Position numbers and translations under genes: made by a program. Below are positions 11,696-33,834 of a stretch of DNA of 55,916 nt, piece after piece; the first letter of the stretch is position 1, and the number at the start of each line of letters is the position of its first letter. The DNA is from Candidatus Woesearchaeota archaeon (lineage in GTDB: Archaea > Nanobdellota > Nanobdellia > Woesearchaeales > DSVV01). The notes beneath the pieces were generated by a model. The model had not been told where the DNA came from, did not search any database, and saw only the letters and a list, made by a program, of their open reading frames with translations. Location: the NCBI GenBank assembly GCA_016214075.1, contig JACRPI010000020.1, positions 1 through 55,916 on the forward strand, in the 5' to 3' direction.

Positions 11696-11736
11696 AGATT
11701 TTGCTTTCTTTGTGTTAGTCATACTTTTAGTAGGAT

Positions 11737-11890
11737 GTGGGTTGGAGATGCTTACAAAGCAAAGCTTTGTGGCAACATTGATCTCTTCGAGTTCAATGTT
11801 AACAACCATGAACAATGAGCCGGGTTGGAGATAACAACCGTGAACAGATGAGTTCTAAAAACTACCATCTACGGAAACGTAGGGGGTAGT
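11737..11890 (+). promoter_or_regulatory. Structured 5' leader RNA, riboswitch-like candidate
   Basis: Several perfect helices can be drawn. GGTTG (11740-11744) pairs with CAACC (11803-11807) and encloses two hairpins: ACAAAGC-AAA-GCTTTGT (11754-11770), and AACATTGA/TCAATGTT (11774-11800) with CTC-TTC-GAG at its tip. A second unit, GGTTG-GAGATAA-CAACC (11823-11839), repeats the flanks of the first: both begin GGGTTGGAGAT and end AACAACC, then RTGAACA and ATGAG. A third hairpin, ACTACC..CTACG-GAAA-CGTAG..GGTAGT (11861-11890), has a GNRA loop and holds the GGGGGT segment just upstream of ATG 11895, so it could hide the ribosome binding site. The layout of a multi-helix domain followed by a start-site hairpin is that of a cis-regulatory RNA. 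It matches no class that I recognise. Confidence 0.6.
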
Positions 11891-11894
11891 GAAA

Positions 11895-12575
11895 ATGGAA
11901 CAAAAAAATATTGATGCTTTAGTTTTTATTGAAGAGCGTGAAGACGCGTATGTTCTCCATAATGTTTCTTATTTAGGAGTTCCTCATGATGTTGATGTTC
12001 GCAAGGCATTGTTAGAAAAGGTCGTGACACATACACTAGATGATTCGGTAAACTTAATAAAAGAACTTCCTTCTGGTCCGCTGTACTTTGCAGCTGCTCG
12101 TTCATTGTATGAAAATAAAGATCATCTTGATGCAAAGCAATGCAGACTCGTTGAAAAAGTAAGGAAGATGTTCGCTTCAGATATAAAACATGGTGTGATG
12201 ACAAGTACTCGCGTTACCTATAGTGCGAGGGGTTATGATAAGGTTACTCATGATGCGAGCTATCCAACAGAAAGAGTGATTGGCGCGGTAATTGTTTGTC
12301 CAAATGGTTATATTAATGATTCAAATTTTGGTTCTGTAACAGAAGCACTTCTTGGTGAAGCAGACACGCAGAAAATTGAAGCGGTTGGTCAATACATTAT
12401 TGGAAAACCTGCGTATTTGTGGCAGAGAAATAAGGAACCAATGCAAGATACTACGCTTGCGTTGGGGTTTGACGCCTATGATGGTAGGTTCGGCGTCAGT
12501 GCTAATATCGCCTTATACGGCAGCAACTGGCGTGCTCGCGGGATGGTCGCACGTCGCGCCGAAAATTCTCCATAG
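11895..12575 (+). CDS. Family A protein A0 (unknown function), first gene of cluster
   Basis: A 226-residue protein with no signal peptide; start taken at ATG 11895, as the in-frame GTG at 11889 lies in the leader hairpin. It is a divergent member of a family with four other members in this operon (13371, 14058, 17446, 22683). Shared features are a central segment of the form G.LYF/PY.WE..(R)SLY followed by a Q..LV/L helix (here LDAKQCRLVEKVRKMF), and a C-terminal block in which a hydrophobic strand precedes GS..(A)RG (here FGVSANIALYGSNWRARGMV). The C-terminus resembles that of 22683 (LGILYGSDGASRG). No catalytic motif or named family is recognised. The AYDGRFG tail suggests a beta-rich C-terminal domain. 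Confidence 0.65.
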   Translation: MEQKNIDALVFIEEREDAYVLHNVSYLGVPHDVDVRKALLEKVVTHTLDDSVNLIKELPSGPLYFAAARSLYENKDHLDAKQCRLVEKVRKMFASDIKHGVMTSTRVTYSARGYDKVTHDASYPTERVIGAVIVCPNGYINDSNFGSVTEALLGEADTQKIEAVGQYIIGKPAYLWQRNKEPMQDTTLALGFDAYDGRFGVSANIALYGSNWRARGMVARRAENSP

Positions 12576-12602
12576 GAAATGATGAGTATGAGGTAGTTGA
12601 AA

Positions 12603-13358
12603 ATGAAAACAAACAAGATAGTGGGATTACTTGGATTATTATTACCATCAACAGCGCACGCTGACGAATGGAAAATTTCAGACGCAGAACAATCTCTTTG
12701 TTATGAAACGACAACTCCTCTTGGCATCACCGCGTACGCGCTTCTTGATACAGGATCTCCTGTTGCTCTTGAAGCCATTTCTCTCTCCTCAACAAACGTT
12801 TGTTATGCTTTTCCTCGGGAAGAGACAGCAACCATTACTCTTACTGGAACCTACGGGAATACTTTACCTTTGCATAAAAAGAGATTTTATGTTTATCGTG
12901 GACAGCTCTATGAAGAACCGTTTACTCTGGAAAGCACTGTCGCGCCTTCACCTTCGCATACAAATACAGCTTATGTTTATGATGGAGAGCTCTCTGAAGA
13001 ACTGTTTATTGTGGCAAGCACAATCGCACCTTCCGCGCTTGCCATTACTCGAGATACTGTTTCATTTACTGATGATAATGCTTTACGAATGAAAGCGTAT
13101 GGTGTTATCTATGAACCTGGAACAGACACCTCTCATCACGTTGAATTGACAAAAATCACTGAAAATACTACGACCGCGACTTTTCTCATCCCAACAGACG
13201 ATGTTATCCGCACGCTTTCTCATTCTCCTGTTGGCAGTGTTTCAAGGTACTATGCTGTTGACAGAAATGGAAATCACTCTTTAACTTATATCTCTATGTC
13301 GGGAATGTTTTTCGCTTTCTCAGATTCATCGAAGAAGGAAAATCAAAGAAATGAATAA
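12603..13358 (+). CDS. Exported protein with repeated beta-rich modules (family B)
   Basis: A 251-residue protein starting at ATG 12603 after GGTAGTTGAAA. The N-terminus MKTNKIVGLLGLLLPSTAHA, preceded by two residues, is a classical signal peptide with cleavage expected after AHA. The mature part holds an N-terminal beta-rich region (about 25-95), a short stretch where YVYRGQLYEEPFTLESTVAP and YVYDGELSEELFIVASTIAP are tandem copies, and a C-terminal module (VSFTDDNALRMKAYGVIYEP through SRYYAVDRNGNHS). The D.NGN.S ending is reminiscent of Ig-like surface domains. The C-terminal module recurs in 14835, 18263, 19944 and, more weakly, 21715. Likely a surface-exposed or secreted protein; partner unknown. 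Confidence 0.7.
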   Translation: MKTNKIVGLLGLLLPSTAHADEWKISDAEQSLCYETTTPLGITAYALLDTGSPVALEAISLSSTNVCYAFPREETATITLTGTYGNTLPLHKKRFYVYRGQLYEEPFTLESTVAPSPSHTNTAYVYDGELSEELFIVASTIAPSALAITRDTVSFTDDNALRMKAYGVIYEPGTDTSHHVELTKITENTTTATFLIPTDDVIRTLSHSPVGSVSRYYAVDRNGNHSLTYISMSGMFFAFSDSSKKENQRNE

Positions 13359-13370
13359 TGGTGAATAAAA

Positions 13371-14051
13371 ATGGTTGAAACAGTTGTTTATGGTGGATTA
13401 GAATGGGAATTGTTTGCTCAGCGAGAGCGAGAACTTACTCGTTCGGAAAGAATTGCTGTTTTTTTTAGCGATGATTCAAAACTTCCAGAAAAAAGGGAAA
13501 TGACTGTTGAAAGACATCATCGACGACTTGCTGAATTACCAGCCATAAATAAATTGCCTGGTAATCTGAACTGGCGCGCGCCTTATATTTGGGAAGTAAA
13601 CAGATTACATATTGATGGACTCAGAAAAAGACTCAATCCTCAACAAATGCGCTTATGGCATGATATGTTTTCTCATGGCGTGGGAGAATGGTATGATCTG
13701 GGTATTTCTCGAGAACGAGATGTTCTTACTCTTCATTATTCTTCTCATTTAGACGATCTATCTCCAGTTAGGTATCGCGCTTCAATGCCTCTTCATCTTG
13801 AGGATTGTTTTCCGTCTCATGATTCATCGTATTCTCATCCTATTTCTAAAGCAACTCCTTTATTTACCAAGCTTTTGTATGATCGTCTTCCGGAACAGCT
13901 TCCTTCTGCGATACGTCAAGAACAAATTATTATTCCCTACGTAAGAAAGTCTATCTGTCCTGCCGGTCGCAAAGATGGCTATTGCATTGCTGTTGATGAG
14001 AGATTCGCCTCTCGCGGTGTTCGTGAACTGAAAAGTTATAGTGGTAGGTGA
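13371..14051 (+). CDS. Family A protein A1 (unknown function)
   Basis: A 226-residue protein without a signal peptide, closely related to the next gene; they share runs such as VYGGLEWEL, LPEKREMT, LNPQQMRLWHDMFSH and ASRGVRELKSYS. Conserved elements across family A are a WRAPY.WE motif near residue 64, an EWYD motif near 105, and a terminal CPAG..DGY.I..D..FASRGVR block. A WR.P..WE segment and terminal RG.R recall the sulfatase-modifying/DUF1566 (C-type-lectin-like) folds, but order and spacing differ, so this is only a hint. The stop codon TGA is part of the AGGTGA ribosome binding site of the following gene. Confidence 0.7.
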   Translation: MVETVVYGGLEWELFAQRERELTRSERIAVFFSDDSKLPEKREMTVERHHRRLAELPAINKLPGNLNWRAPYIWEVNRLHIDGLRKRLNPQQMRLWHDMFSHGVGEWYDLGISRERDVLTLHYSSHLDDLSPVRYRASMPLHLEDCFPSHDSSYSHPISKATPLFTKLLYDRLPEQLPSAIRQEQIIIPYVRKSICPAGRKDGYCIAVDERFASRGVRELKSYSGR

Positions 14052-14057
14052 ATAGAC

Positions 14058-14828
14058 ATGTTTGAGACAGTTGTTTATGGTGGTCTTGAGTGGGAATTGC
14101 TTGCTTCAAGAGAGAGGGAATTGACTTTTTGGGAACGTTTTGCGGTTTCTTTTGAACATAAAAGCGAACTCCCAGAAAAAAGGGAAATGACTTTTAGAGA
14201 ACATCATGAACGACTTGCTCAATTATCAGCCATACATAAATTGCCAGGCAGTGAATCATGGCGTGGACCTTATCTTTGGGAAGTCAACAGATTATACATT
14301 GATGGAGTACGAAACAGACTTAATCCTCAACAAATGCGCTTATGGCATGATATGTTTTCTCATGATATGGGAGAATGGTACGATATTGGTCTTTCTAAAC
14401 CAAAAGATGTTCTTATTCTTCATTATTCTTCTTTTTTAGACGCTCAATCTCAAATTACCTATCGCAAATCGATGCGTTTTCATGTCGAAGATTGTTTTAC
14501 GTCTGATGGTCGCAGAGGGGGCTCTCGGGGGAGTTGTTTAGGGTTTTCATATTTTCCTGTTTTTGACGCAACTCCGCTGTTTAGCATGTTTTTGTATAAT
14601 TGTTTTCCGGAACAGCTTCCCTGTCCGTTGCCAGGAGGGCGAGATTATATTCAGTTTCCAACTCCAGACTATAAAGATCTCGATGAAAAAAATGGATTTG
14701 CTCCTCTTTCTCTCCAGGAGCGCTCTCTTATTTTTCCTGCCGGTCATAAAGATGGCTATTGCATTGGTCTTGATGAGAAATTCGCATCTCGTGGTGTTCG
14801 TGAATTGAAAAGTTATAGTGATAGGTGA
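14058..14828 (+). CDS. Family A protein A2 (unknown function)
   Basis: A 256-residue tandem duplicate of the preceding gene, with identity concentrated in the first 130 residues and in the last 30 (CIGLDEKFASRGVRELKSYS). It differs by an insertion near residues 155-165 (GRRGGSRGSCLGFSYFP) and by a longer loop near 200. No signal peptide is present although neighbours are exported, so family A may act inside the cell or be surface-associated by another route. Its start lies 6 bases after the A1 stop, with the ribosome binding site AGGTGA made from that stop codon; the same arrangement follows at its own end. Confidence 0.7.
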   Translation: MFETVVYGGLEWELLASRERELTFWERFAVSFEHKSELPEKREMTFREHHERLAQLSAIHKLPGSESWRGPYLWEVNRLYIDGVRNRLNPQQMRLWHDMFSHDMGEWYDIGLSKPKDVLILHYSSFLDAQSQITYRKSMRFHVEDCFTSDGRRGGSRGSCLGFSYFPVFDATPLFSMFLYNCFPEQLPCPLPGGRDYIQFPTPDYKDLDEKNGFAPLSLQERSLIFPAGHKDGYCIGLDEKFASRGVRELKSYSDR

Positions 14829-14834
14829 ATAAAA

Positions 14835-15695
14835 ATGAAAACAAACACTTTAAGCTTAGTCGGACTGTTGTGCGCAACTGGTGTTGGCTGTACTGCTCAT
14901 AAAGAGATGCATGATTATGTTGAGCAAGTCAAACACAGTTCTGAAGATGTTGCTATTATTCCAAGTTCTACTGAAGTAGATGCAAAAGCTCTTGAGTATT
15001 TTCGAGAATTTGGCTACAACGATCCTCTTTTAGATATGACACCATTCTGTTTTGTTGATTACTATCAGCGTCCTTTTGTTCAAGATGCGGTAAAAGTAAC
15101 TCATGGAGGCTCTCTAATAGCTGTTTGGCGCCTACCAATCCTCTATGTCAAAGATGATAAACATGATCCTGTCGTGTTACCGATCTCTTCTTATAATAAT
15201 TGTAATACTGGTGTGCCTGCATACGATATTCCTGCCTATTTTCTTGAACAGCCTTCTTTTATTATTTATGATGAGCGGTTTGCTCGTGCTGAGCGGGACG
15301 TTCATGGTTTTGACACCGGCTTTTCGGAAACTTATTACACACTTGATGGATATATTTCTAAAAGTCCCTTTTTGTTAGATACCGAAAAAGCTCCTCGCAG
15401 TTTGGGTTTTTGGCTTGATAACACTCTGCAATTTCAGGATGACAATGTTATAGGAATAGAAGGATATGCCCTTGTTTCTGCTTCAGGTGAGCAACAGCTT
15501 ATTCATCTTTCTTCCTTGCCTTATGATAATAATGAGATCGTTTCATTCCGTGTCACAAATGATATTGTCTGCACTATGACTGGATTTTATGCTCTTGATA
15601 GAGATAAGAACAGTTCTGCTATTTATACCCCTTCTCCAGAGAGAAAGGCTCAAGCTTGTGAAAAAGTGGGGCAGGCATCGAAGACTAATAGGTGA
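14835..15695 (+). CDS. Putative exported lipoprotein with family B module
   Basis: A 286-residue protein. The N-terminus MKTNTLSLVGLLCATGVGC is a signal peptide ending in a lipobox-like VGC, so the mature protein may be lipid-anchored at C19. The middle (residues 60-170) is unlike the other members. The C-terminal 110 residues carry the family B module: DGYISKSPFLLDTEKAP, then FQDDNVIGIEGYALV, then TGFYALDRDKNSS, aligning with 12603, 18263 and 19944. Six cysteines are spread over the mature part. The gene follows A2 by 6 bases and uses an AGGTGA site formed by the A2 stop codon. Confidence 0.7.
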   Translation: MKTNTLSLVGLLCATGVGCTAHKEMHDYVEQVKHSSEDVAIIPSSTEVDAKALEYFREFGYNDPLLDMTPFCFVDYYQRPFVQDAVKVTHGGSLIAVWRLPILYVKDDKHDPVVLPISSYNNCNTGVPAYDIPAYFLEQPSFIIYDERFARAERDVHGFDTGFSETYYTLDGYISKSPFLLDTEKAPRSLGFWLDNTLQFQDDNVIGIEGYALVSASGEQQLIHLSSLPYDNNEIVSFRVTNDIVCTMTGFYALDRDKNSSAIYTPSPERKAQACEKVGQASKTNR

Positions 15696-15700
15696 AACAA

Positions 15701-17437
15701 ATGATCACCGCTCTTCTTGGACTTACCTCGTGCGCTACTCTTGAAAAAAGAATTGTTCCCGCGTACCAACACGCATGTGAACAAGAAGAAAGTGTGGCGT
15801 GCGATGACGCGACCATTCGTGTCGCAAAATATGTTGACGAAGCTGATAACGCCGCTCTTCAGCAAAAAAAGTTATGGCAGAAGCAAACATTGGATTTTAT
15901 TGCTGTTCTTCACGCTGAATTGGAAACCGCTTCCTGCTATCATGATTCAATGATTGGTTCTCGAGCTGTTACCAATACTCGGGATTATTATACGAACACT
16001 GCTGATTATTCTACAGGAGGAATAAGTAATGCGCATTTTCCTCAGAATGTCGAAGCTCTTTGCTCAGATAATGTTAAACCAATAGATTACAACGACAATG
16101 GCACAAAAAGTTCCTTCATTGGCGCGAAAACAGGAAGAAAAATTCAATGCACTGGAGAACGGCAGGCGATTCCAGATTGTCAGTATAAAGATAAAGATGT
16201 TTCTTTTTTTCTTGATCGAAGTAATTTCACCTCTTCCCCTTCTTTCTGTTCTTCAATTGAAGAAGATTTTGTCTTTTCTTTCGCGGATATTGAATACACT
16301 TATCACTGGCAGAATAAAACAGGAAAAATAACAACCACAGAATTGCGTTTTGCTTCTTCTTCCTGGCATTATACTCTTCTTTGCGATGCTCTGACTACAG
16401 GAGAAATGTTTTGCGCAGCAGAAGCCAAAACAGAACACTATAGACACACGCTCTCTACAAACTCTCTCGACTGTCCCGCTTTGCTTGGATTATTTTCTGA
16501 TGACTGGATTCCTCACAAAGAAATTGTTACCGCGCTTTCAGAAACAGAGCTTCAAAAAATGCGTACTCTTGTTCGCGAAAATAATGAACAGCAGGAGACA
16601 CAACAAGTTGCGCAGCGAAAAATACCTGTTGTTCAGGAAGATCAGCCAGGATATTTCTTAACTTCTCAAGTGCTTGTATTTGCCGGGCAATCCGCGGACA
16701 TTCCGTATCGAGACAAACCAACATTTCCTGGCGTTGAAAATATTGAATCCATTCTCACTCCTTTCGCGCAAGAAAATATTTTTTATACTTATGCGTTTGA
16801 CGCAAAGACAAAATATTTCAGCACCGCTGTGACGCTTGTCGGTTATACAGAACAGCAAACTGATGTCATCCGAGAGCAGTTAAATATTCTTGTCATTCTT
16901 TTTATGAGCGAGCTCACCGCGTCAGGAAAAAGTATGGTGAAGATCACTCTTGGTGATCAACAATTGGATCATATTCCAGCGACCGCTAGTTTTGGTGTCA
17001 GCTATCCAATGTCCACAAAGATGATGACTGAGCACACCGCCGCGCAACAAAATCCGTATCGGATTATTTGCCCTGAAAGTATTGCTGCGGACAATGCTTC
17101 TTTCGCAGTATTTCAACGTGACCTTTTAGGATACAAATTAGAATGCGTTATGGAAAAAGATAATGCTCCCGCACTTTGGGGTGTTGCTTCTTTTGTTTGG
17201 AACCAATGGCAACATCAGCCATTTGCGGTTGAAACAATGGATAATGGACAGTACGCTTCTTTTACGAAAGGAGAGTATCAGCTAAAACATGCTGCTTGCC
17301 ATAATGGAACAACATGGACAGCGTATGAGAACGGATCAGCATCTGTCCAGACATTTTCATCACAATCTCTTGGAAAAGAATTCAGCGGCGAAGCACTGAA
17401 TAAAAAAACCGCAGAAAAATTCTGCGAGGAAAGGTAA
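15701..17437 (+). CDS. Large family C protein, probably exported
   Basis: A 578-residue protein from ATG 15701; a GTG at 15692 would add MKQ and supply the positive charge a signal peptide needs. The N-terminus ITALLGLTSCATLEKRIVPA has a short hydrophobic run and a lipobox-like LTSC. Residues 10-300 align with the first 300 residues of 18263: both have PAYQ.ACEQ.ESVACDDAT, QQKKLW.KQ.LDFIAVL.AELETA, and near 280 CPAL.GL.S..WIPH.EI.TALSE. The segment is cysteine-rich, as expected for an exported, disulphide-stabilised protein. Residues 320-578 are unique and include a helical region near 400 and an Asn/Thr-rich C-terminus. No enzyme motif is recognised. Confidence 0.65.
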   Translation: MITALLGLTSCATLEKRIVPAYQHACEQEESVACDDATIRVAKYVDEADNAALQQKKLWQKQTLDFIAVLHAELETASCYHDSMIGSRAVTNTRDYYTNTADYSTGGISNAHFPQNVEALCSDNVKPIDYNDNGTKSSFIGAKTGRKIQCTGERQAIPDCQYKDKDVSFFLDRSNFTSSPSFCSSIEEDFVFSFADIEYTYHWQNKTGKITTTELRFASSSWHYTLLCDALTTGEMFCAAEAKTEHYRHTLSTNSLDCPALLGLFSDDWIPHKEIVTALSETELQKMRTLVRENNEQQETQQVAQRKIPVVQEDQPGYFLTSQVLVFAGQSADIPYRDKPTFPGVENIESILTPFAQENIFYTYAFDAKTKYFSTAVTLVGYTEQQTDVIREQLNILVILFMSELTASGKSMVKITLGDQQLDHIPATASFGVSYPMSTKMMTEHTAAQQNPYRIICPESIAADNASFAVFQRDLLGYKLECVMEKDNAPALWGVASFVWNQWQHQPFAVETMDNGQYASFTKGEYQLKHAACHNGTTWTAYENGSASVQTFSSQSLGKEFSGEALNKKTAEKFCEER

Positions 17438-17445
17438 AAGGAAAA

Positions 17446-18258
17446 ATGGTTCCTCATGGAAGTAAGAAGTATGGGAATACTAGTTTTAGCAATAGATATA
17501 ATAGTATCGTTGAGACAAGAACTTGTCTGGGGATGGATTGGGAAATTGTAGAAAACCAAACGCCATTGACTATTGAACGTATATTAAATATAGAGTCCTA
17601 TCGGCAGAGATTTCCGTTTTCTCCTCCAAGGCAATCTATATCTTTTGATCAGCATCTTGCGCGAATGCGTGCATTAGGAGAAGGATGGCGCGCCCCATAT
17701 CCTTGGGAAATCGCTCAATTATACCATTATTTAGAAAGAGGGTTACCTCGTCTATATTTTGATGCAAGACAAGCAACTATTCCGGAATTGTGGAATGACA
17801 TCTTCGACCACCATATTACGGAATGGACTGACATTGCATTTCAGGTTGCTCCACGCGCTAACACTCTTACAGTCTATGTTTCTCCAAGAAGAGTAGACGA
17901 ATCTAGTATACATTATCTTCATTCTCGAACATTTGACCTTCCTGAGAGTAAGGATGTGTTTGGTATTCCACATCATAAGAGAGAATACCGCTCTTTTGAG
18001 CTTCCTGAATTAGCATTTTATTTGTCTGGTCGTTATCCTTCTCGTCCAAATGAAGAATTATTCTCTGATATAAGAGATACCTTTGCATTCGACAATTTTA
18101 GAATTGTTATTCCTCCCGATGACGGACATCTTTGGCCTGTTACTTTGCATAGTGACTATGCGGTATCTTGTGGTATCCATTCATCTGAATCCTCTGCTTC
18201 TTCTCGCGCTATACGTCCAAATAAATATTATATTTGTAATAGTTCAGGTAAACGGTGA
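17446..18258 (+). CDS. Family A protein A3 (unknown function)
   Basis: A 270-residue protein, divergent from A1 and A2 but sharing the family plan: IVETRTCLGMDWEIVE at the N-terminus, GEGWRAPYPWEIAQLYHYLE in the middle, then ELWNDIFDHHITEWTDIAF, and a C-terminal YAVSCGIHSSESSASSRAIR. The WRAPY.WE and EW.D motifs are at the same relative positions. It has a Ser/Asn-rich first 20 residues that could be a wrongly included extension, but no better internal start is evident. It lies between the two family C genes, continuing the alternation of family A and exported genes. Its stop codon forms the GGTGA site of the next gene. Confidence 0.65.
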   Translation: MVPHGSKKYGNTSFSNRYNSIVETRTCLGMDWEIVENQTPLTIERILNIESYRQRFPFSPPRQSISFDQHLARMRALGEGWRAPYPWEIAQLYHYLERGLPRLYFDARQATIPELWNDIFDHHITEWTDIAFQVAPRANTLTVYVSPRRVDESSIHYLHSRTFDLPESKDVFGIPHHKREYRSFELPELAFYLSGRYPSRPNEELFSDIRDTFAFDNFRIVIPPDDGHLWPVTLHSDYAVSCGIHSSESSASSRAIRPNKYYICNSSGKR

Positions 18259-18262
18259 AAAC

Positions 18263-19927
18263 ATGATGATTCCTCTTTTTGAACTTACCTCGTGCGCAAC
18301 ACTTGAAAAAAAGATTGTTCCTGCGTATCAACAAGCATGCGAACAAGGAGAAAGCGTGGCATGCGATGACGCGACACGACGCATCGCGCCATTTGTGGAA
18401 GAAGCAAATGCTGCCGCTCTTCAACAAAAAAAATTATGGAGGAAGCAATCATTGGATTTTATCGCTGTTCTTGATGCTGAATTGGAAACCGCAGTCTGCT
18501 ATCATCATCTGATTATCGGAAGCCATGTGGTTTCTGAAGATGGCATTCATGGCATTCGTGCTGCCTATATTCCCTCCGACGCAAAAAATACTTGTTCTGA
18601 CGCTGTTACACCAACACAAAATACTAATGATGGGTCAGAAAGTCAGTATTTGGGGATAAAAACAGGACAGGAAATCATCTGCACAGGAAATCGTCAAGCA
18701 GCGCCGGAGTGTATGTATAAAGATGAAAAAATGGTTTATCTTACCGCACCACAGGTGGGATCAAATACATTGTTTTGTAAATCTGTGAAAGAGGCAATCT
18801 CCACTTTTAGTGATATCAATGGTTTACCTAAAATTAGCGAGGTTGATAGTCGAGTTGGAAACATGACACAAAAGGAAATTCGTTTTGATGATAAAGACTA
18901 TTATAGATATGCATGGGATGCTACACTTGATTGTTATATCATGGACACTTATATATTTTGCGAAGCAATAGGAAGGGATGGCTATACAACTTCTCTCGCA
19001 TGTCCTGCACTGATTGGGCTTCTTTCTAACCATTGGATACCTCATCAAGAGATTATTACCGCGCTCTCAGAACAAGAGTTAGGTGAAATACAGACATTTA
19101 TTTCTGAAAATACGCAACAAAAAAAGAAGGTAGGAGAGCAGGTCGCTAACACAACAACGCCTGTTGTTGATGATTCATTGGATTATGTTTCTGCTCCTAT
19201 AACACTTTCTTCATCCGCTGAACAGTGCCCTTCGCAGTACTATCGAGGGTTATGGGGGATCTATCAGACATCAACTGGTTCTCTTCCTGCATACAACAAG
19301 AAAACAGAACAATTTGATTTTGTTTCAGTTTCTCCTGGTGATATTTGCTATGATGGTCCGTATCCTTCAATTGCCAGCGTCTCCATTGTTCATGGTTCTA
19401 CAACTCTTCCTCTTATTCGTTATGAAGATAGGAATTATGAACATTGTGATTGCTTTCCTCTTCCAGCAGATGTCCTGCGCTTTGACCCCCCAACTTTTGT
19501 GGTTCATGGTCAGGATTCTTCAGGATCTATTATTCCTCCTGTAAAATTTGCTATTTCAGAGGCTGGAACTATTTATCCTATTAGCTTAGATCGAGAAATT
19601 TATCGGCTTGATGGTATTGAATCTTCTACTCCGTTTGTTATGGATAGCACACAAGCGCCAAAAGTTACGCTTACACCATCTGGTTTAGAAGTTACCGATG
19701 ACAATGCCATTGGCATGCAAGCTTTTGCTCTTGTCAAACATCCAGGCAATGAAACTATTGAATATATTCCATTAGATATCACACGCGGTACCGCACAAGG
19801 TGCACTTTTTTCTATTCCTTCTGACATTACCTCTCAAATTATTGGTTATTACGCATTAGATAGAAATAATAATAAATCAGTCACAGTGGATCCAACAGGC
19901 AAGAAACTTGTTGAAATAGTTAAATAA
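18263..19927 (+). CDS. Family C-B fusion protein, probably exported
   Basis: A 554-residue protein from ATG 18263; the longer open frame upstream overlaps A3 and lacks a ribosome binding site, whereas GGTGAAAAC precedes this ATG. Residues 1-305 are family C, aligned to 15701 (ELTSCATLEKKIVPAYQQAC and on). Residues about 335-455 are a separate beta-rich domain with paired cysteines (EHCDCFP). Residues 460-554 are the family B module, with DGIESSTPFVMDSTQAPK, then DDNAIGMQAFALV, then IGYYALDRNNNKS. The protein thus joins elements that are separate genes elsewhere in the operon. The N-terminus is a weak signal peptide (contains Glu), so export is inferred mainly from the module content. Confidence 0.65.
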   Translation: MMIPLFELTSCATLEKKIVPAYQQACEQGESVACDDATRRIAPFVEEANAAALQQKKLWRKQSLDFIAVLDAELETAVCYHHLIIGSHVVSEDGIHGIRAAYIPSDAKNTCSDAVTPTQNTNDGSESQYLGIKTGQEIICTGNRQAAPECMYKDEKMVYLTAPQVGSNTLFCKSVKEAISTFSDINGLPKISEVDSRVGNMTQKEIRFDDKDYYRYAWDATLDCYIMDTYIFCEAIGRDGYTTSLACPALIGLLSNHWIPHQEIITALSEQELGEIQTFISENTQQKKKVGEQVANTTTPVVDDSLDYVSAPITLSSSAEQCPSQYYRGLWGIYQTSTGSLPAYNKKTEQFDFVSVSPGDICYDGPYPSIASVSIVHGSTTLPLIRYEDRNYEHCDCFPLPADVLRFDPPTFVVHGQDSSGSIIPPVKFAISEAGTIYPISLDREIYRLDGIESSTPFVMDSTQAPKVTLTPSGLEVTDDNAIGMQAFALVKHPGNETIEYIPLDITRGTAQGALFSIPSDITSQIIGYYALDRNNNKSVTVDPTGKKLVEIVK

Positions 19928-19943
19928 ATAAGGGTGAAAACAA

Positions 19944-20735
19944 ATGAAAACAAGAATACTTTCAATAGGAGCAGTTGGCTTTATTACGCCCGCGATCCAG
20001 CACGCAGACAGCTGGGAAATAACAAAACCAGAAAAACCTGCCGCGTTTGTTGAGCATATCACCCAGATAAAAACATACGCTCTTGGTACTGAGGTTTCTG
20101 TTTCCATGGACTTTGAACCCGCGCAATCTCTTTGTTATAACACAAAAAATTCAGAAGGAATTGAAGCGTATGTTCTTGATGATTCTGGCTTTGCGGAACC
20201 TCTTACTGCTCTTTCACAATCTCGTGATTCTGTCTGCTACGCTCTTCCTGTTCTTGAAACAACAACAACGCTTACTCTTGCGGGAACGTACGCAAATGGA
20301 GTGCCTCTGCAACAAAAAAAAGTGCATGTTCTGGATGGGTATCTTTCAGAACACCCTTTTGTTTTAGAAAGCGTTGTCGCGCCGCAGCGTCCTGAAATTA
20401 TGATGGATGGTACTCTTGTCTCTTTTGAGGATGACAACGCGTTGGGCATGACCGCGTTCGCTCTTGTGTATGATCATCCAATGATGAAATATTACTCTGT
20501 TGAACTTGAACCTTATGTCGAAAACACTGTTGGCGCTGTTTTTCTTCTTCCAGATAATTCAACTCTTTCTGTTACTGGCGTTTACGCGAAGGATAGAAAT
20601 GACAATTCTTCTTTGCTGTATCATGTTTCTGATGGCATCATTCTTGGTGATCCTACCAAAATGACTTCTCAAACACCGGAAGAAGCTTTTCGTGAAAAGG
20701 GATTTGAGAAAATGAATCGGCGGGGGAGCAAATGA
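19944..20735 (+). CDS. Exported protein with family B modules
   Basis: A 263-residue protein preceded by GGGTGAAAACAA. The N-terminus MKTRILSIGAVGFITPAIQH is a signal-peptide-like segment with possible cleavage near QHA-D. It is the closest relative of 12603: shared features are the region around SLCY.T, the phrase S.D/NVCYA.P..E(T/A), TGTY/AGTY.N..PL..K, and the C-terminal module DGYLSEHPFVLESVVAP, FEDDNALGMTAFALVY, TGVYAKDRNDNSS. After the module comes a charged tail (about 35 residues) ending MNRRGSK. The last bases overlap the ATG of the next gene (ATGA), so translation is coupled. Confidence 0.7.
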   Translation: MKTRILSIGAVGFITPAIQHADSWEITKPEKPAAFVEHITQIKTYALGTEVSVSMDFEPAQSLCYNTKNSEGIEAYVLDDSGFAEPLTALSQSRDSVCYALPVLETTTTLTLAGTYANGVPLQQKKVHVLDGYLSEHPFVLESVVAPQRPEIMMDGTLVSFEDDNALGMTAFALVYDHPMMKYYSVELEPYVENTVGAVFLLPDNSTLSVTGVYAKDRNDNSSLLYHVSDGIILGDPTKMTSQTPEEAFREKGFEKMNRRGSK

Positions 20736-21718
20736 TATCGCCTTTAACAGCATCATTATTGGCACCCGCGTACGCAGGTGAATGGCTAGAGCCTGAAAAA
20801 ATTATTCTTCATGAAGGAGAAGTTATGATCGCGGAATACCGCGCGGAACGTGGTATTGCTGTTCTTGAGCGAAAAGCAGAGCTTCAAAATGACACCACTG
20901 CTTATAAGATTTGTTATCGTCGTGCTTCTAATGATCCTTTTTATTATGATGCCGCCTTTCTGGATTCTCCATTTAATGTTATTACTTTTGGTTCTGAGCT
21001 TGTTCGACTTGATACGTTTCCTTCTTCAGAATCTGATCTTTTGTGTTATCTTCTTCCAAGGGGTACTGAGAATGATGATGGTGCTTTTGATATTTATCTT
21101 GTTTCGCAAAGGGATCATTATTATCCTATATCTGATGTTAAAACGCGTACTGACATTCTTATTTATTATGATTCTGAGCGCATGAGATATTATACTGGCT
21201 CTGTCACTATTGATGGAGAAGTATCTCGCATTATTACCTCTTCGCAAAAGGATATAGGCAGAGAATTTTCCACAAAAAAACAACTTCCATACACTGTTAC
21301 AAGAACAAACAAACAGGCGTTTGAAGAATATTTTCCAGTATGGGAAATTACCGTGCCTCACGCTCTTCCTCCTTCAGACCTTACTGTGTGTGAATATTTT
21401 ATGACAGAACAAACAGTTGGCGATGGCTATTATCTCTCTCCAGCACAAGGGCGTCCTCCTTTTGATAGACCTATTTCCCAGCAGCATCTTTCTCCTAGTG
21501 CTGCTTATTTTAGACCATTACATTCAGATTCTAAACCCGCTCTTCTTGTTCTGTCATACGCTGATGACAATCTTGAATCGATAGTTTCTGCTTTTGTTTA
21601 TTCTCCAGGCAAAACCACACTTAAACATGTCGAAGTTCCTTCTGACTTGCCTGCATGCGAAACTTGGGAAAAACAAACAGAAGAAACTAAGAAAAAGAAA
21701 CGGGGGAAAAACAAATGA
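20732..21718 (+). CDS. Exported protein of unknown function
   Basis: A 328-residue protein starting ATGATA at the stop of the previous gene. MISPLTASLLAPAYA-G is a signal peptide with an AYA cleavage site. The mature N-terminus GEWLEPEKIILHEGEVMIAE aligns with the next protein (GNWLEPKMLVRTSGMAIADV), and both have a CYLLPRGT/CFYLPPGT block near residue 110, so 20732 and 21715 are paralogues of each other. The C-terminal part contains YADDNLESIVSAFVYSPGKT, a faded form of the family B module. The extreme C-terminus is a lysine-rich tail (EETKKKKRGKNK). Overlaps the following gene by 4 bases. Confidence 0.65.
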   Translation: MISPLTASLLAPAYAGEWLEPEKIILHEGEVMIAEYRAERGIAVLERKAELQNDTTAYKICYRRASNDPFYYDAAFLDSPFNVITFGSELVRLDTFPSSESDLLCYLLPRGTENDDGAFDIYLVSQRDHYYPISDVKTRTDILIYYDSERMRYYTGSVTIDGEVSRIITSSQKDIGREFSTKKQLPYTVTRTNKQAFEEYFPVWEITVPHALPPSDLTVCEYFMTEQTVGDGYYLSPAQGRPPFDRPISQQHLSPSAAYFRPLHSDSKPALLVLSYADDNLESIVSAFVYSPGKTTLKHVEVPSDLPACETWEKQTEETKKKKRGKNK

Positions 21719-22686
21719 TCAGCATTCTTGCACTCCTTTATACTGCGCACGCAGCAAAACCAAAACCATTTGTTGAAAATGGAAATTGGCTGGAACCAAA
21801 AATGCTTGTTCGTACAAGCGGTATGGCTATTGCCGATGTTTATGACATGGAAAAAATGAATCCTGCTGATCCAGAAAGCATCGCTATCAAAACATTGCAG
21901 GATCGTCAAGTGGCAAGCATTGGCGCGACTGGCCACTGGCAAACGTATGAACTTTGTTTTATGCCAAACACTACTGACCCTAAAACAAAAAAACCAACTC
22001 CTCTCATTGATCCAAAGGCAGTGAACGCGTTCATGCATTCAGAAGCGGATAAAGATCTTCTTGGAGATGTTTCGATTGCTCTCGGTTCTTCCTACGAAGA
22101 GGCAAACAAATACGTGCTTGATACTTCTTCTGGACAACAGCCGCTTTGCTTTTATCTTCCTCCTGGCACTGCAAGCAGAAAGGATACTTTAGAAATTTAT
22201 TTTATGCAAGATGGAAAAGGGTTGCTCGCAAAAAAAACATATTATACAGTTGACGCGATTATTGATGAAGAATCGTTTGGCTATATTTCTGACAAACCAA
22301 TTCCATTGGAAACTTCTGCCGCGCCATCTTCTCTTGCCTTAGAAACAGCGCGAGAAAGGGAGTGGTATTGGACAGTGACTGATGATTTCGCTCCAGCGAT
22401 GCGCGCGTGCCTTGTTTTTACAAAAAATGAGGAGGAATATAATCTTGCCATCACAAAAACAGAAGAGTATTTTACCACTGCTGTTTTTACTTCTCCTCCT
22501 TTGCGATATGGCACTGCTGAAGATGTTACGTTTGTCGCGATAGACAGAAACAAGAATATGACCGCTTTTTCCTATGCAGCAACTGTTGATGGCGAAGGAT
22601 TTCTTGTTCCAATTACTCAGAAAACTTCTTTGCCTGTTGGATATGTTCCATGCGCAAAGAAACAAGGAAATAGTGAGACACAATGA
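21715..22686 (+). CDS. Exported protein, paralogue of the preceding gene
   Basis: A 323-residue protein; MISILALLYTAHA-AKP is a short signal peptide. Shared with 20732 are the W-LEP start of the mature chain, the LPPGT block and a comparable length. The C-terminal region has the family B ending, DVTFVAIDRNKNMT, and a preceding LETSAAPSSLALET segment equivalent to LESTVAPS in 12603. It therefore links the 20732-type N-domain with the B module. It overlaps both neighbours by 4 bases (ATGA and ATGAGC), indicating tight translational coupling. No catalytic residues recognised. Confidence 0.65.
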   Translation: MISILALLYTAHAAKPKPFVENGNWLEPKMLVRTSGMAIADVYDMEKMNPADPESIAIKTLQDRQVASIGATGHWQTYELCFMPNTTDPKTKKPTPLIDPKAVNAFMHSEADKDLLGDVSIALGSSYEEANKYVLDTSSGQQPLCFYLPPGTASRKDTLEIYFMQDGKGLLAKKTYYTVDAIIDEESFGYISDKPIPLETSAAPSSLALETAREREWYWTVTDDFAPAMRACLVFTKNEEEYNLAITKTEEYFTTAVFTSPPLRYGTAEDVTFVAIDRNKNMTAFSYAATVDGEGFLVPITQKTSLPVGYVPCAKKQGNSETQ

Positions 22687-23333
22687 GCGCAATTACGTAC
22701 AATAATCTTTCATTAGAAGATCGAACATATCAAGAGAATGGAGAGACAAAACTTCTTCCTTATGATCAAAGCCTTGCACGATTGCGGCAAGCTGGATTTA
22801 CTCGACACCTTTATCCTGTCGAAGCATTTCAATTTATTATCGATGGCTTAGAAATGAAATTGGCTCCTCATCAACATCTCTTTTGCGCTCAGATGCTTAC
22901 CTCTCCTGCTGAATGGTTGAACATAGCGATAGGTGTTGAAGAAAAAAAACACTTCCTCTGGCATCCTTCACGTACATTAACTCTTTATTTTGATCCTGAA
23001 GGTCTTGTCTGGGATCCAAAGAAACGTCAATACAACACGCAGAAATTTACCTATTCTCGCAAACAAGACTTTGATATTACTTCTCTTCCTGTCGCGCAAT
23101 ATGTCGATCTCTCTCATTTCTCTGATTCTTTTGCTCTCGCGGTTACTGGGCGCTCATGCGCTTCTTTACCAAAAAATTTACGCGATAAAAATGATTCACG
23201 GCGAGTGCAGGTTTACATTCCGCGCGTTGGCACTCTTTGTCCCGCTGCTCGTGTTGGATACAAAAGATACGTTGTTCGATTAGGTATACTCTATGGCAGT
23301 GATGGCGCTTCTCGCGGCGCAAAAACTTTGTGA
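22683..23333 (+). CDS. Family A protein A4 (unknown function), last gene of cluster
   Basis: A 216-residue protein without a signal peptide. It keeps the family plan in a reduced form: YDQSLARLRQAGFTRHLYPV corresponds to FDQHLARMRALGEGWRAPYP of A3, followed by EAFQFIIDGLEMKLAPHQHL, an AEWLNIAIG segment (equivalent to EWYDLGIS), a Tyr/Phe-rich strand region, and the ending LCPAARVGYKRYVVRLG then ILYGSDGASRG. Here the WR of WRAPY is replaced by RHL. The start codon overlaps the previous stop by 4 bases. A new promoter (aspS) follows, so this gene closes the operon. Confidence 0.65.
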   Translation: MSAITYNNLSLEDRTYQENGETKLLPYDQSLARLRQAGFTRHLYPVEAFQFIIDGLEMKLAPHQHLFCAQMLTSPAEWLNIAIGVEEKKHFLWHPSRTLTLYFDPEGLVWDPKKRQYNTQKFTYSRKQDFDITSLPVAQYVDLSHFSDSFALAVTGRSCASLPKNLRDKNDSRRVQVYIPRVGTLCPAARVGYKRYVVRLGILYGSDGASRGAKTL

Positions 23334-26113: not shown

Positions 26114-27163
26114 TTATATTTTTCTTACGATTCCTTTATCAGCATCCACTTCAACGATATCTCCATCTTTAAATACTTTTGTTGCTCTTCTTGTACTCAT
26201 GATACATGGCTTATCAAGCTCTCGGGCAACAATCGCAATGTGACTTGTTAATCCTCCTTCATCCGTCACTATTGCTTTTGCTCGCTCTATTGCGGGCAAG
26301 AAATCAGGCGCGGTCATTGGTGTGATAAGAATATCCGCGTTAAAATCTTTCACTTGCTCTGAATTAAAGATAACTCCTACTTTCCCTCTTGCTACGCCTC
26401 TGCATGCGGTCATTCCTTTTACGCTCTCTTCTTGTTTTTCTTCAGCGAGAAATAATTTGTGCTCCGCAAGGAATTTCTTCAGATTTTCAGTAGGGTTTAT
26501 TGTTCCATTCATATAAAAAAATCCTTTGAAGCGTTTGTCTAGATCACTTTTCTTTGGCGCGGTTCCTTGTGTAAGCGCGTCTATCTCTTCCACACTCAAA
26601 ATCTTTACGTATTCTTTTGGAATCTTGCTTTTCTCTAAAAGTGGACCAAGCAATTCGCGCATGAAATTATCATTTTTTTTTATGCATCCTTCACTGTGAA
26701 TTCTGCTTTTCATTAGTCGTGGAAGTATCGCTTCTGCTTCTTTTCCATTTATCTTTACAAAATCTTCACGCCACGCTCCTGGAATAAAAACACCAATGGG
26801 ATATAAGACATACATTTTTTTGAAAAGAGCTTTTAATTTTTGAATATGCGAATAAACATTTTTAACAGAATTTGGATCCACTTGTAATGCTTCTCTAAAT
26901 GCATCTACATTTTTTCTAAATGTTATATGAAGCTCTTCGCTAAATATGTCACTCTCTGGATTTTTATGTGTCATGAACTCTTTGAGTTCAGCATTTTCAT
27001 CTTTATATCGATACCATGTATATGATTTGCCATCAAAATAAACCATTTGGTCATTTAATCCTTTTCCCCAAAGCGCAGGAATCTCTTTTGCAAATGTTTC
27101 TTTCACTAATTGATTAGACCATTGGTTAAAATCACGAACAAAGATGTGTTGAATTTCTTTCAT
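26114..27163 (-). CDS. Stand-alone PEP-utiliser swivelling-domain protein 4
   Basis: A 349-residue protein. The last 90 residues are the phosphohistidine swivelling domain of PEP synthase, pyruvate phosphate dikinase and rifampin phosphotransferase; the phospho-accepting His lies in EGGLTSHAAIVAREL, and CRGVARGKV plus ITPMTAPDFLPAI are the usual flanks. The first 250 residues (W- and K-rich, helical, e.g. FNQWSNQLVKETFAKEIPAL) resemble neither an ATP-grasp nor a PEP barrel domain, and may bind the phosphate acceptor. It would need the separate PPDK_N protein at 31445 or another to phosphorylate its His. A TATA box (AAAGTTATAAAAG) lies upstream. It is shorter than the other three relatives (492-522 residues). 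Confidence 0.8.
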   Translation of the reverse strand: MKEIQHIFVRDFNQWSNQLVKETFAKEIPALWGKGLNDQMVYFDGKSYTWYRYKDENAELKEFMTHKNPESDIFSEELHITFRKNVDAFREALQVDPNSVKNVYSHIQKLKALFKKMYVLYPIGVFIPGAWREDFVKINGKEAEAILPRLMKSRIHSEGCIKKNDNFMRELLGPLLEKSKIPKEYVKILSVEEIDALTQGTAPKKSDLDKRFKGFFYMNGTINPTENLKKFLAEHKLFLAEEKQEESVKGMTACRGVARGKVGVIFNSEQVKDFNADILITPMTAPDFLPAIERAKAIVTDEGGLTSHIAIVARELDKPCIMSTRRATKVFKDGDIVEVDADKGIVRKI

Positions 27164-31444: not shown

Positions 31445-32320
31445 TTATTTTAACGTTGTTATTGGTCGCGCTTGCAAGACATGCACTTTTCCATCTTCAA
31501 TTGCCCATTCAATGTCCATTGGCTTTTTGTAGTGCTGCTCAATCTTTTTTCCAACAGTGATGAGCTCTTTCAGCTGTTCTTCGCTTAATGTTTGTTTTTC
31601 AAAATTGAGATATTGTTCTTTCACTGTTTCTTCTTTTTTATTGAGAATAAACGTGTCTGGCGTAATTTCTCCGCTGACGAGCTTTTCTCCCAACCCAAAA
31701 CATGCTTCAATAATCATTTCATCATGCGATTTGTTGATGGGATTCATCGTAAACAGCACTCCTGCGGTGTCTGCGTTGACCATCTTCTGAATGACGACCG
31801 CAAGAAACGCTTTCTCATGTGGAAAATTATTTTTTTCTCTATACATAATTGCTCGGCCGTTGAATAAGGATGCCCAGCATTTCTTTACTGCGGCAAGGAC
31901 ATCTTCCTGTCCTTCAATGTTGAGGAATGTGTCCTGTTGTCCCGCAAAACTTGCTTCTTCTAAATCTTCGCTTGTCGCGCTGGATCTTACTGCGACTTTG
32001 CCTCCTAATTTTTCATAGTTGACTCTGATTTCGTTTTCCATTTCTAGCGGGATTGTTACATCAAGAATTCTTGATTTGATGACATTCGCCACTGCTTCAA
32101 GTTCTTCTATATTCTCAATATCTCTCTTTTCCATTATTTTTAAGAATTCATCTTGATGTTGTTTTAGAACTTCTTTGTACGCAGCAACACTAATACAAAA
32201 GCCGTTTGGAACAGGCATCACGCTGGACATTTCTCCGAGTGATGATCCTTTGCCCCCGACAATCGGTGTATCGTCTTTGTCGACTTCTTCGAACCAGAGT
32301 ATGTGTTTTGTTTGTTTCAT
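31445..32320 (-). CDS. Stand-alone PEP synthase ATP-binding domain (PPDK_N)
   Basis: A 291-residue protein equal to the N-terminal ATP-grasp domain of PEP synthase and pyruvate phosphate dikinase. Motifs: VGGKGSSLGEM (residues 22-32), VAVRSSATSEDLEEASFAGQ, GVLFTMNPI, EACFGLGEKLVSGEITPD and, ending the protein, VLQARPITTLK. In whole enzymes this domain is followed by the swivelling His domain and the PEP-binding barrel; here the chain stops exactly at the domain edge. It should transfer phosphate from ATP to a His carried on another protein. Two such His proteins (32342 and 33835) lie immediately upstream in the same operon. The barrel domain is not in the window. Confidence 0.85.
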   Translation of the reverse strand: MKQTKHILWFEEVDKDDTPIVGGKGSSLGEMSSVMPVPNGFCISVAAYKEVLKQHQDEFLKIMEKRDIENIEELEAVANVIKSRILDVTIPLEMENEIRVNYEKLGGKVAVRSSATSEDLEEASFAGQQDTFLNIEGQEDVLAAVKKCWASLFNGRAIMYREKNNFPHEKAFLAVVIQKMVNADTAGVLFTMNPINKSHDEMIIEACFGLGEKLVSGEITPDTFILNKKEETVKEQYLNFEKQTLSEEQLKELITVGKKIEQHYKKPMDIEWAIEDGKVHVLQARPITTLK

Positions 32321-32341
32321 GTTTCTGTTTTGTTATGTTCT

Positions 32342-33820
32342 TTAGTTTATAATTTTAATGGTTCCTGTGCTCGTATCAAGCTCTACACGCATTCCATCTT
32401 GAAGTATCTTACTTGCCTGCTTTGTTCCTACAATACAAGGAATTTGGAGTTCCCGAGCGACAATCGCGGCATGGCAGCTCAAGCCGCCAATATCGGTAAT
32501 TATTCCTCCTGCTCCTTTCATTGCAGAGAAAAGATTTGGGTGCGTCATTACCGAAGTGAGGATTATTCCTTCTTTCATCTTTTCCATATCTTCAACTGTA
32601 TTAACTATACACACTTCTCCTCGAACATTTCCGCTACACGCGACTTGACCTTTCAGTTCTGTTATCATGTTCTTGTTTTCTTCTTCTACATTCTCTTTCA
32701 GTATCTTTGTTGCTTCTTCTTCTGTTAATGGATAACATTTTCCTTCATAACTCACAAACGCACAAAATTCTTCTCTGCTTCTTATTTCTTCAATCTTTTC
32801 TTTTGTGATTCCTTGTGTTAGCGCTTCTTCCACTTCCCAGTCAAACATTCCTCTGGTATCATCAAGACTTATATTCAGTTGTTGTCCTATCTCCTTTAGG
32901 AGAAATTCCACGCAGTAATAGGATTCCGCGAATATTCCTTTTCTAAAATATTTAAGATACACAATGTCCTGTGCAATCTCTGCGAAATTCTGCGTTTGCT
33001 CTCGAAGCGCATACTTCTTTATGTACTCCTTCTGTCTTTCTTGCAGCTTTTTTTGTTTTTCTTCGATCTGTTCTACTCTTTTTGTGGGATCTTTATGTTG
33101 TTCTATGTCTTCTTCTATTTGTCTGAGAAAATCTGCTTCGATTAGGGGAATTCCTTCAAACATATATTCTCTCCAATTCCATCTCTCTGTATGCATTCTT
33201 ATTTCTTGTTCCACATTTTGTTTCTCTGCATATTTTGCCGCGATCTTTAATCGTTCTATTTCTTCTTGCAGTAGATATGAATTTTTTGTTGGACTGCTTA
33301 AGGTACTAAATGCGTCATTAAGCATTTCTCCTTCTATTTGCTGACCTAATTTTTCCTTTAAGAGATTGCTTAAGATAGGTGTATCATGTTCTAGCATCAT
33401 GGGAATTGAGCTATACACACGCATATCTTTGAATAAGTTGCAATATTCTTGATAGAGCGCTAGAAGTTCTGCTTGACTTTTTGTTTTGTAGTTTATGTTC
33501 TTTAGATTTCTGCTGAACGCAATAAGCGCTGCTGCTCGAACATAAATCTCTTTTGTTGCATGTTCAAACCATTTTGCCTCTTCTTGGATTTTTTTAAGAA
33601 TAACCTCTGCAATTCTGAGACATTCTTCATGATTCATATACATAGGAAAATTTCTTTTTTTCCCTATGGCAACAATTGGTTTGTACGTTGTTCCTAGTGA
33701 TTTTTGCAATGTCCCTGTTCTCGCGTCAAATCCCAAAAACATTGCAAAGACATTTGCCTTATTCTCATAATAGTTGTATAAAGGATAGTTTTTGAGTGCT
33801 TCCAGCGCTTTTTCTTTCAT
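32342..33820 (-). CDS. PEP-utiliser swivelling-domain protein 2
   Basis: A 492-residue protein. Residues 1-390 are helical, Glu/Lys-rich and unlike known PEP synthase domains; by position and helical content this corresponds to the acceptor-binding region of rifampin phosphotransferase. The last 95 residues are the swivelling domain: CSGNVRGEVCIV, LTSVMTHPNLFSAMKGAGGI, and IGGLSCHAAIVARELQIPC with the phospho-His. The preceding gene (33835) is a close relative (overall layout, CYPLTEEEATKIL versus QYLITGKEAEEMI, VALACMTQPE versus ILTSVMTHPN), 14 bases apart; the ATP-grasp gene follows by 21 bases. It is likely the acceptor of phosphate from the 31445 protein. Confidence 0.8.
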   Translation of the reverse strand: MKEKALEALKNYPLYNYYENKANVFAMFLGFDARTGTLQKSLGTTYKPIVAIGKKRNFPMYMNHEECLRIAEVILKKIQEEAKWFEHATKEIYVRAAALIAFSRNLKNINYKTKSQAELLALYQEYCNLFKDMRVYSSIPMMLEHDTPILSNLLKEKLGQQIEGEMLNDAFSTLSSPTKNSYLLQEEIERLKIAAKYAEKQNVEQEIRMHTERWNWREYMFEGIPLIEADFLRQIEEDIEQHKDPTKRVEQIEEKQKKLQERQKEYIKKYALREQTQNFAEIAQDIVYLKYFRKGIFAESYYCVEFLLKEIGQQLNISLDDTRGMFDWEVEEALTQGITKEKIEEIRSREEFCAFVSYEGKCYPLTEEEATKILKENVEEENKNMITELKGQVACSGNVRGEVCIVNTVEDMEKMKEGIILTSVMTHPNLFSAMKGAGGIITDIGGLSCHAAIVARELQIPCIVGTKQASKILQDGMRVELDTSTGTIKIIN

Positions 33821-33834
33821 GATTTTCTATCCTC

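Follow-up and report, generated by a model that had tools for sequence, protein, structure and literature searches.

The operon and its leader

Between positions 11895 and 23333 of the window, that is, of the whole stretch of 55,916 nucleotides that was analysed, eleven consecutive open reading frames are encoded on the + strand. The ORF list contains all eleven in the order and with the tight spacing that the original prediction had given them, with intergenic gaps mostly of 4-16 bases or 4-base overlaps, and a first gap of 27 bases. The DNA had been attributed to a DPANN archaeon, which is borne out by the named relative, a Woesearchaeota MAG.

The leader that was expected ahead of these genes is present, structured, and about 155 nt long (11737..11892, + strand). 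The region 11735-11897 folds with -52.8 kcal/mol (z = -5.4 against shuffled sequences), and the last hairpin of the leader (CUACC AUCUACG GAAA CGUAG GG GGUAG) covers the SD-like GGGGGU found before the ATG, so that this hairpin may set the translation of the first gene. A second copy, 93% identical, is located on contig C13 of the window's genome. The search in 241 other genomes gave only short matches at the level of chance, and an Rfam search based on an E-value threshold gave no family above its gathering score. The leader is known, in consequence, from two near-identical copies, both in the same genome.

The copy on C13 precedes a unit that encodes a 463-aa protein, which has no family match, and a sigma-54-like DNA-binding protein of 260 aa. 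The gene for the latter (L003:7664-8446) is the second one behind the leader, and its product matches the sigma-54 DNA-binding domain PF04552 with an E-value of 5e-9, above the curated cut-off. The occurrence of the leader in front of two units suggests that they share their control, the mechanism of which we infer.

Other features of these two regions can be mentioned here. The 463-aa protein encoded directly behind the C13 leader (L003:8443-9834) holds AGHG...HTCG stretches and appears peptidase-like by eye, and it is flanked on its other side by a 585-aa protein (L003:10088-11845) with a weak match to DUF4347 (E 0.007). Further along the window, the ORF list shows a repeated occurrence of PEP-utilizing/PPDK-like proteins (26114-27163, 31445-35403, and 38208-39704), with the swivelling-domain motif TDEGG.T.HAAI.

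Two families of non-secreted proteins

Five proteins of the operon had been predicted to lack a signal peptide, and no signal-like N-terminus can be recognised in them by eye. Their grouping into a single family of five members stands only for four of them. The proteins encoded at 13371..14051, 14058..14828 (65% identical to the former), 17446..18258 (which shows the WR.PY.WE form), and 22683..23333 (the member closest to the copies of the genome nzgw44 described below), all on the + strand, do belong together and constitute family A. The product of the first gene, a protein of 226 aa encoded at 11895..12575 (+ strand), is a member of a different family, as its homologs form a family of their own, and the comparison of both families (A7 against A11) with hhalign yielded a probability of 0.2%. 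The single family was rejected because no similarity was observed when the profiles of the A, 11895, and AvpA families were compared. The RG-type ends that A and 11895 have in common do not seem to reflect any detectable homology.

None of the operon proteins had been recognised as a member of a named family, and this agrees with the searches of the window proteins against Pfam, NCBIfam, PHROGs, PADLOC, and PDB sequences, which provided no usable match. What escaped that first reading, and holds the key to this locus, is that both non-secreted families are target families of diversity-generating retroelements (DGRs), whose reverse transcriptase (RT) rewrites their genes from a template, as detailed in the following sections. 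Family A was not found in viral contigs. The AF2 model of this family, for which the alignment was shallow (12 rows), has a pLDDT of 67.5, with values below 50 in the variable end, and Foldseek found no match for it. By analogy with the precedent described in archaea (PMC5006420), a C-type lectin fold would be expected.

Gene 11895 and its relatives linked to DGRs

The homologs of gene 11895 are accompanied by an adjacent template repeat (TR), from which their variable regions (VR) differ in an adenine-directed manner. These differences are located at adenines in 14/14 cases in G199, 8/8 in G046, 13/13 in G434, and 12/12 in G128, and an RT gene adjoins each of these pairs.

The genus-mate G286 has two DGR RTs, both encoded at contig starts. 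Its contig C116 opens within an 11895-type gene, the 3' end of which is followed by the template and then by a truncated RT. The end of this gene matches positions 12436-12582 of the window at 77%, and the last 52 bases or so, through the stop codon, are nearly identical, which defines a constant 3' end for gene 11895 (12530..12582, + strand). The match stops at 12582, where G286 continues to the TR and the RT and the window to gene 12603. In G286, 17 of the 18 differences between its own VR and its own template are found at adenines. When the variable region of gene 11895 (12455..12547, + strand) is aligned to this template, which is that of another species, 17 of 23 differences are at template adenines (p=3e-6), and the six remaining ones are expected if the template comes from another species or if the VR has drifted since. 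In addition, 18 of the 21 codons in this region are NNY, and the proportion at choice codons is 10/12, versus 56/110 in the rest of the gene (p=0.03). Gene 11895 has the end and the adenine-directed VR of a DGR target gene, and we read it, from its sequence, as a target that is separated from its template and RT.

The comparison with this genus-mate also bears on the origin of the operon. Between the gene for a metallo-beta-lactamase-fold protein and aspS, G286 holds only two exported genes, with no A gene and no leader, which makes growth of the operon in the lineage of the window most likely, the alternative being a loss in G286. Because of contig breaks in G286, the start of its 11895-type gene, on C134, could be joined neither to the end on C116 nor to that on C37.

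Family A in other genomes

Family A is present in three of the 145 genomes of the order: the window's genome, G100 (one copy), and G091, which is the Candidatus Woesearchaeota MAG nzgw44 (twenty matches). A wider profile search detected it in 16 of the 371 genomes of the phylum. As in the case of 11895, homologs are found with an adjacent TR and with adenine-directed differences in the VR. The A gene of G310 precedes a template repeat and an RT, and the four differences in the aligned repeat are all at template adenines. In G292, a protein of 721 residues with two A domains is encoded beside a template repeat, and 11 of the 13 differences between this repeat and one VR are at adenines (p=2.9e-6). 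No RT was found on the contig that holds this gene, though three RTs are encoded in the G292 genome. Families A and 11895 are both, in these relatives, target families of DGRs.

The genome nzgw44 carries about 29 family-A places in total when the extra copies are included. The C-terminal segments of these proteins, delimited by 'WPV.R' and 'ASRGV', consist of NNY codons, with NNY at 162 of 194 choice codons versus 1012 of 2459 upstream (p about 1e-31, which must be taken as indicative since paralogs are not independent), and the pairwise identity is 25% in this segment versus 74% in the framework. Adenine mutagenesis of AAY codons leaves precisely this signature. The nzgw44 assembly, which is 96% complete, yielded neither an RT nor a template.

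Several observations were made on the same genomes. The A genes of nzgw44 (L010-L032 and L055-L080) are dispersed, with hypervariable ends, and many of them are inserted singly between housekeeping genes. Contig C2 of this bin (L043, 4108 bases) bears gag-pol-like retrotransposon fragments (RVT_1, along with protease- and integrase-like sequences by eye) and probably represents eukaryotic contamination. G355 encodes two adjacent giant proteins of 1403 and 1026 aa (L126:583-7920) with many internal repeats, each of which ends in a family-A domain. Two contigs of G100 (L041:1-586 and L042:1-586) each start with half of a DGR RT, the two halves being near-identical, as though DGR repeats had broken the assembly.

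Diversification of the operon genes

Only one RT, detected by a match to RVT_1, was found in the genome of the window. It is encoded on contig C3 in a complete DGR (L039:6761-9495), which consists of an AvpA-type target, a template, the RT, and an HTH_40 protein. The target is a homolog of AvpA (PDB 5IOO, E 6.5e-19), and the ten differences between template and VR are all at template adenines (p=7.5e-7). A similar arrangement exists in G107, a genome of the same family, with 12/12 differences at adenines. A tblastn search of the window with the C3 RT gave nothing above chance, and a DNA search for a template of the operon genes in their own assembly (98% complete, in 46 contigs), at the sensitivity of BLAST, found only the leader copy, so that neither of these two components of a complete DGR was detected for the operon in the window.

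Two connections between this DGR and the operon were considered and rejected. The C3 template matches its own AvpA-type target and nothing else convincingly in the genome, which means that the window genes are not targets of the C3 DGR and that its RT does not act on them. The possibility that 11895 is a homolog of the C3 target was also dropped, because BLASTP revealed no similarity.

The A genes of the window are without sign of recent retromutagenesis. The closest pair, 13371 and 14058, shows 69% identity in the variable part versus 62% in the framework, and the variable parts of the window copies exhibit no NNY enrichment. The dN/dS values of three pairs of A paralogs (0.58, 0.39, and 0.36, which are rough, with dS >1 in two of the pairs) suggest that these proteins are maintained. 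According to these data, the A genes of the window look fixed.

As the assembly is divided into 46 contigs, a second DGR may be missed, and repeats of DGRs do appear at contig ends in G286 and G100. Moreover, remote targets of DGRs are known (PMC8144416, PMC8867640), and the VR of 11895 shows the NNY enrichment described above. It could be proposed from this that the operon genes are remote targets diversified in trans by a DGR missing from the assembly. We nevertheless regard such a situation as unlikely, since the template of the only RT found does not match, the homology to the DGR of the genus-mate ends at 12582, and the variable parts of the A genes are not enriched in NNY and, in the closest pair, do not exceed the framework in variability.

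Exported proteins of the operon

The N-termini of the proteins predicted to be exported, judged by eye, are signal-like (AHA|DE, AYA|GE, and similar) or lipobox-like. The B module is indeed common to the products of 12603, 14835, 18263, 19944, and 21715, among which the D, G, S, A, P, DD, F, A, DR, and N positions do not vary, and the C module is common to those of 15692 and 18263, which are 51% identical over about 300 residues. All the corresponding genes are located on the + strand. The first B protein (12603..13358) presents a signal peptide by eye and an Ig-like module with a partial second module copy; the second one (14835..15695) has a lipobox-like N-terminus (GVGC); and two others (19944..20735 and 21715..22686) also have signal peptides by eye. 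The gene 15692..17437 encodes a cysteine-rich C protein with a lipobox-like N-terminus (LTSC), and in the product of 18263..19927 the C module is fused to a B module. Finally, the protein encoded at 20732..21718 appears to be exported by eye and has no confident module.

The Ig-like domains that had been anticipated for B were found in the structural model of 19944 (mean pLDDT 67.7), in which tandem beta-sandwiches resemble Ig/FN3-like folds. Its best PDB match is the Bap C region (7dm0, E 1.3e-5, prob 1.00), followed by Ig/FN3 domains of receptors and filamins, with low TM-scores due to the uncertain angle between domains. The B proteins are thus predicted by modelling to be tandem Ig-like domains, which would be exported according to their N-termini as seen by eye.

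The B module was detected in the window's genome and, weakly, in G286 and G010, and is almost confined to the genus. C is an orphan, found in no other of the 242 genomes, and A occurs elsewhere without either of them. The conserved co-occurrence of A with B and C that would have been expected in relatives of a surface or contact system for host interaction is not supported. A role in contact remains plausible.

Possible functions of the operon

Taken together, it is probable that the operon represents an orphaned set of genes for DGR-type variable proteins (neither RT nor template was found for them) that is transcribed together with genes for exported proteins of tandem Ig-like domains. The assignment to DGR families is strong, while the function is what we infer. 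Each variable protein would bind a ligand through its C-terminal variable surface, and the recognition repertoire, now presumably fixed, would have grown by gene duplication, with the exported B and C proteins acting as putative cell-surface partners. Such a set may serve to recognise a partner or host cell, or else an invader. Contact and defence would both be forms of recognition, and the evidence does not separate the two.

With regard to defence, the soluble DGR-type proteins could form an intracellular sensor/effector (conflict) system against viruses or other invaders, as proposed for the bacterial DGRs linked to MoxR-vWA proteins or kinases (PMC7159879, PMC10907252). The neighbours of these families in relatives point in this direction, because 11895-type genes adjoin a gene for an AAA_5 (MoxR-like) protein in G199 and, in G128, one for a protein kinase (Pkinase, E 1.9e-29), and family A occurs in G133 as a fusion with a Prok-RING-like domain and in nzgw44 next to a VWA_2 gene. 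The leader ahead of the second unit, with its sigma-54-type DNA-binding protein, is also consistent with this role. However, no NTPase, vWA, kinase, nuclease, or protease domain was found in the window operon, whose partners are exported, and for these reasons we consider a conflict system possible but short of probable.

The original prediction had suggested, as an example, a system for host interaction at the surface (appendage, matrix, or contact). In the adhesion system considered here along these lines, the A proteins would be partners in the secretion or assembly of B and C. The exported tandem Ig-like B proteins do resemble a region of an adhesin, the B gene 21715 and the A gene 22683 overlap translationally by 4 bases, the DPANN lifestyle is compatible with such a system, and the authors who have studied DGRs infer an interaction with the host (PMC5006420, PMC8867640). 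The A proteins, in turn, have no signal peptides and occur in other genomes without B or C, and their nature as a DGR target family fits recognition better than assembly. A dedicated adhesion system is therefore a conceivable function to which we give somewhat less than even credence. Returning to the orphaned recognition set, contact with another cell is the use that is favoured by the exported Ig-like nature of its partners in the window.

Comparison with known systems

The operon resembles the archaeal DPANN DGRs with AvpA (PDB 5IOO) in that their targets lack signal peptides and known domains and end in a C-terminal variable region of AAY-derived codons, and a DGR of the AvpA type is indeed present on C3. 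The difference is that the window operon holds neither RT nor template, and that no similarity of its two families to the AvpA-type profile can be detected. From the Woesearchaeota AR3 and AR17, DGR-less homologs of AvpA have been listed as AvpA-like sequences (PMC5006420). They are also DGR-type proteins unlinked to a retroelement, but the window contains two other families, in an operon with exported proteins, and its genus-mate retains a linked template and RT.

DGR-diversified lectin-fold domains are used by the bacterial MoxR-vWA ternary conflict systems (PMC7159879), with which the operon shares recognition domains of the DGR type, and the same families, in relatives, adjoin AAA_5, VWA, kinase, or RING-like domains. 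In contrast, the NTPase and vWA parts are missing from the operon, where exported Ig-like proteins are encoded instead; a MoxR AAA ATPase with a vWA protein was not found in it, and is present only near relatives of 11895 and A. The DGRs of the DPANN clade 5F have been described as lacking a link with conflict domains (PMC10907252). Among the Woesearchaeota examined here, DGR target families were observed next to genes for AAA_5, protein kinase, or VWA proteins, or in fusion with a Prok-RING-like domain (L148, L145, L124, and L016).

Many dispersed targets, with 18 TR/VR loci, have been reported in Trichodesmium (PMC8867640). The family-A places of nzgw44, with their hypervariable ends of NNY codons, are similar, except that neither an RT nor a template was detected in that assembly. 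The presence of multiple DGR loci in DPANN has already been described, and so have remote targets (PMC10907252, PMC8144416, PMC8867640). As far as checked, and leaving aside the 2017 survey of DPANN DGRs, the new elements are the operon, the identification of the two families as targets, the comparison at the genus level, and the expansion in nzgw44.

A broader scenario, which we advance tentatively and hold to be rather doubtful, is that a DPANN lineage has turned hypermutating binding proteins into a fixed, duplicated, regulated, germline-like repertoire with exported Ig-like partners and a leader shared with a second unit.

For DGRs, which are widespread in DPANN, the locus offers two target families that Pfam, NCBIfam, and PHROGs do not recognise, as well as a pair at the genus level in which a target gene can be compared with and without its retroelement. 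It also supplies candidate exported partners in the same operon, which makes the ligand and the site of action testable. Since DGR-type target genes persist and multiply where no RT is found, surveys that start from the RT may undercount the repertoire.
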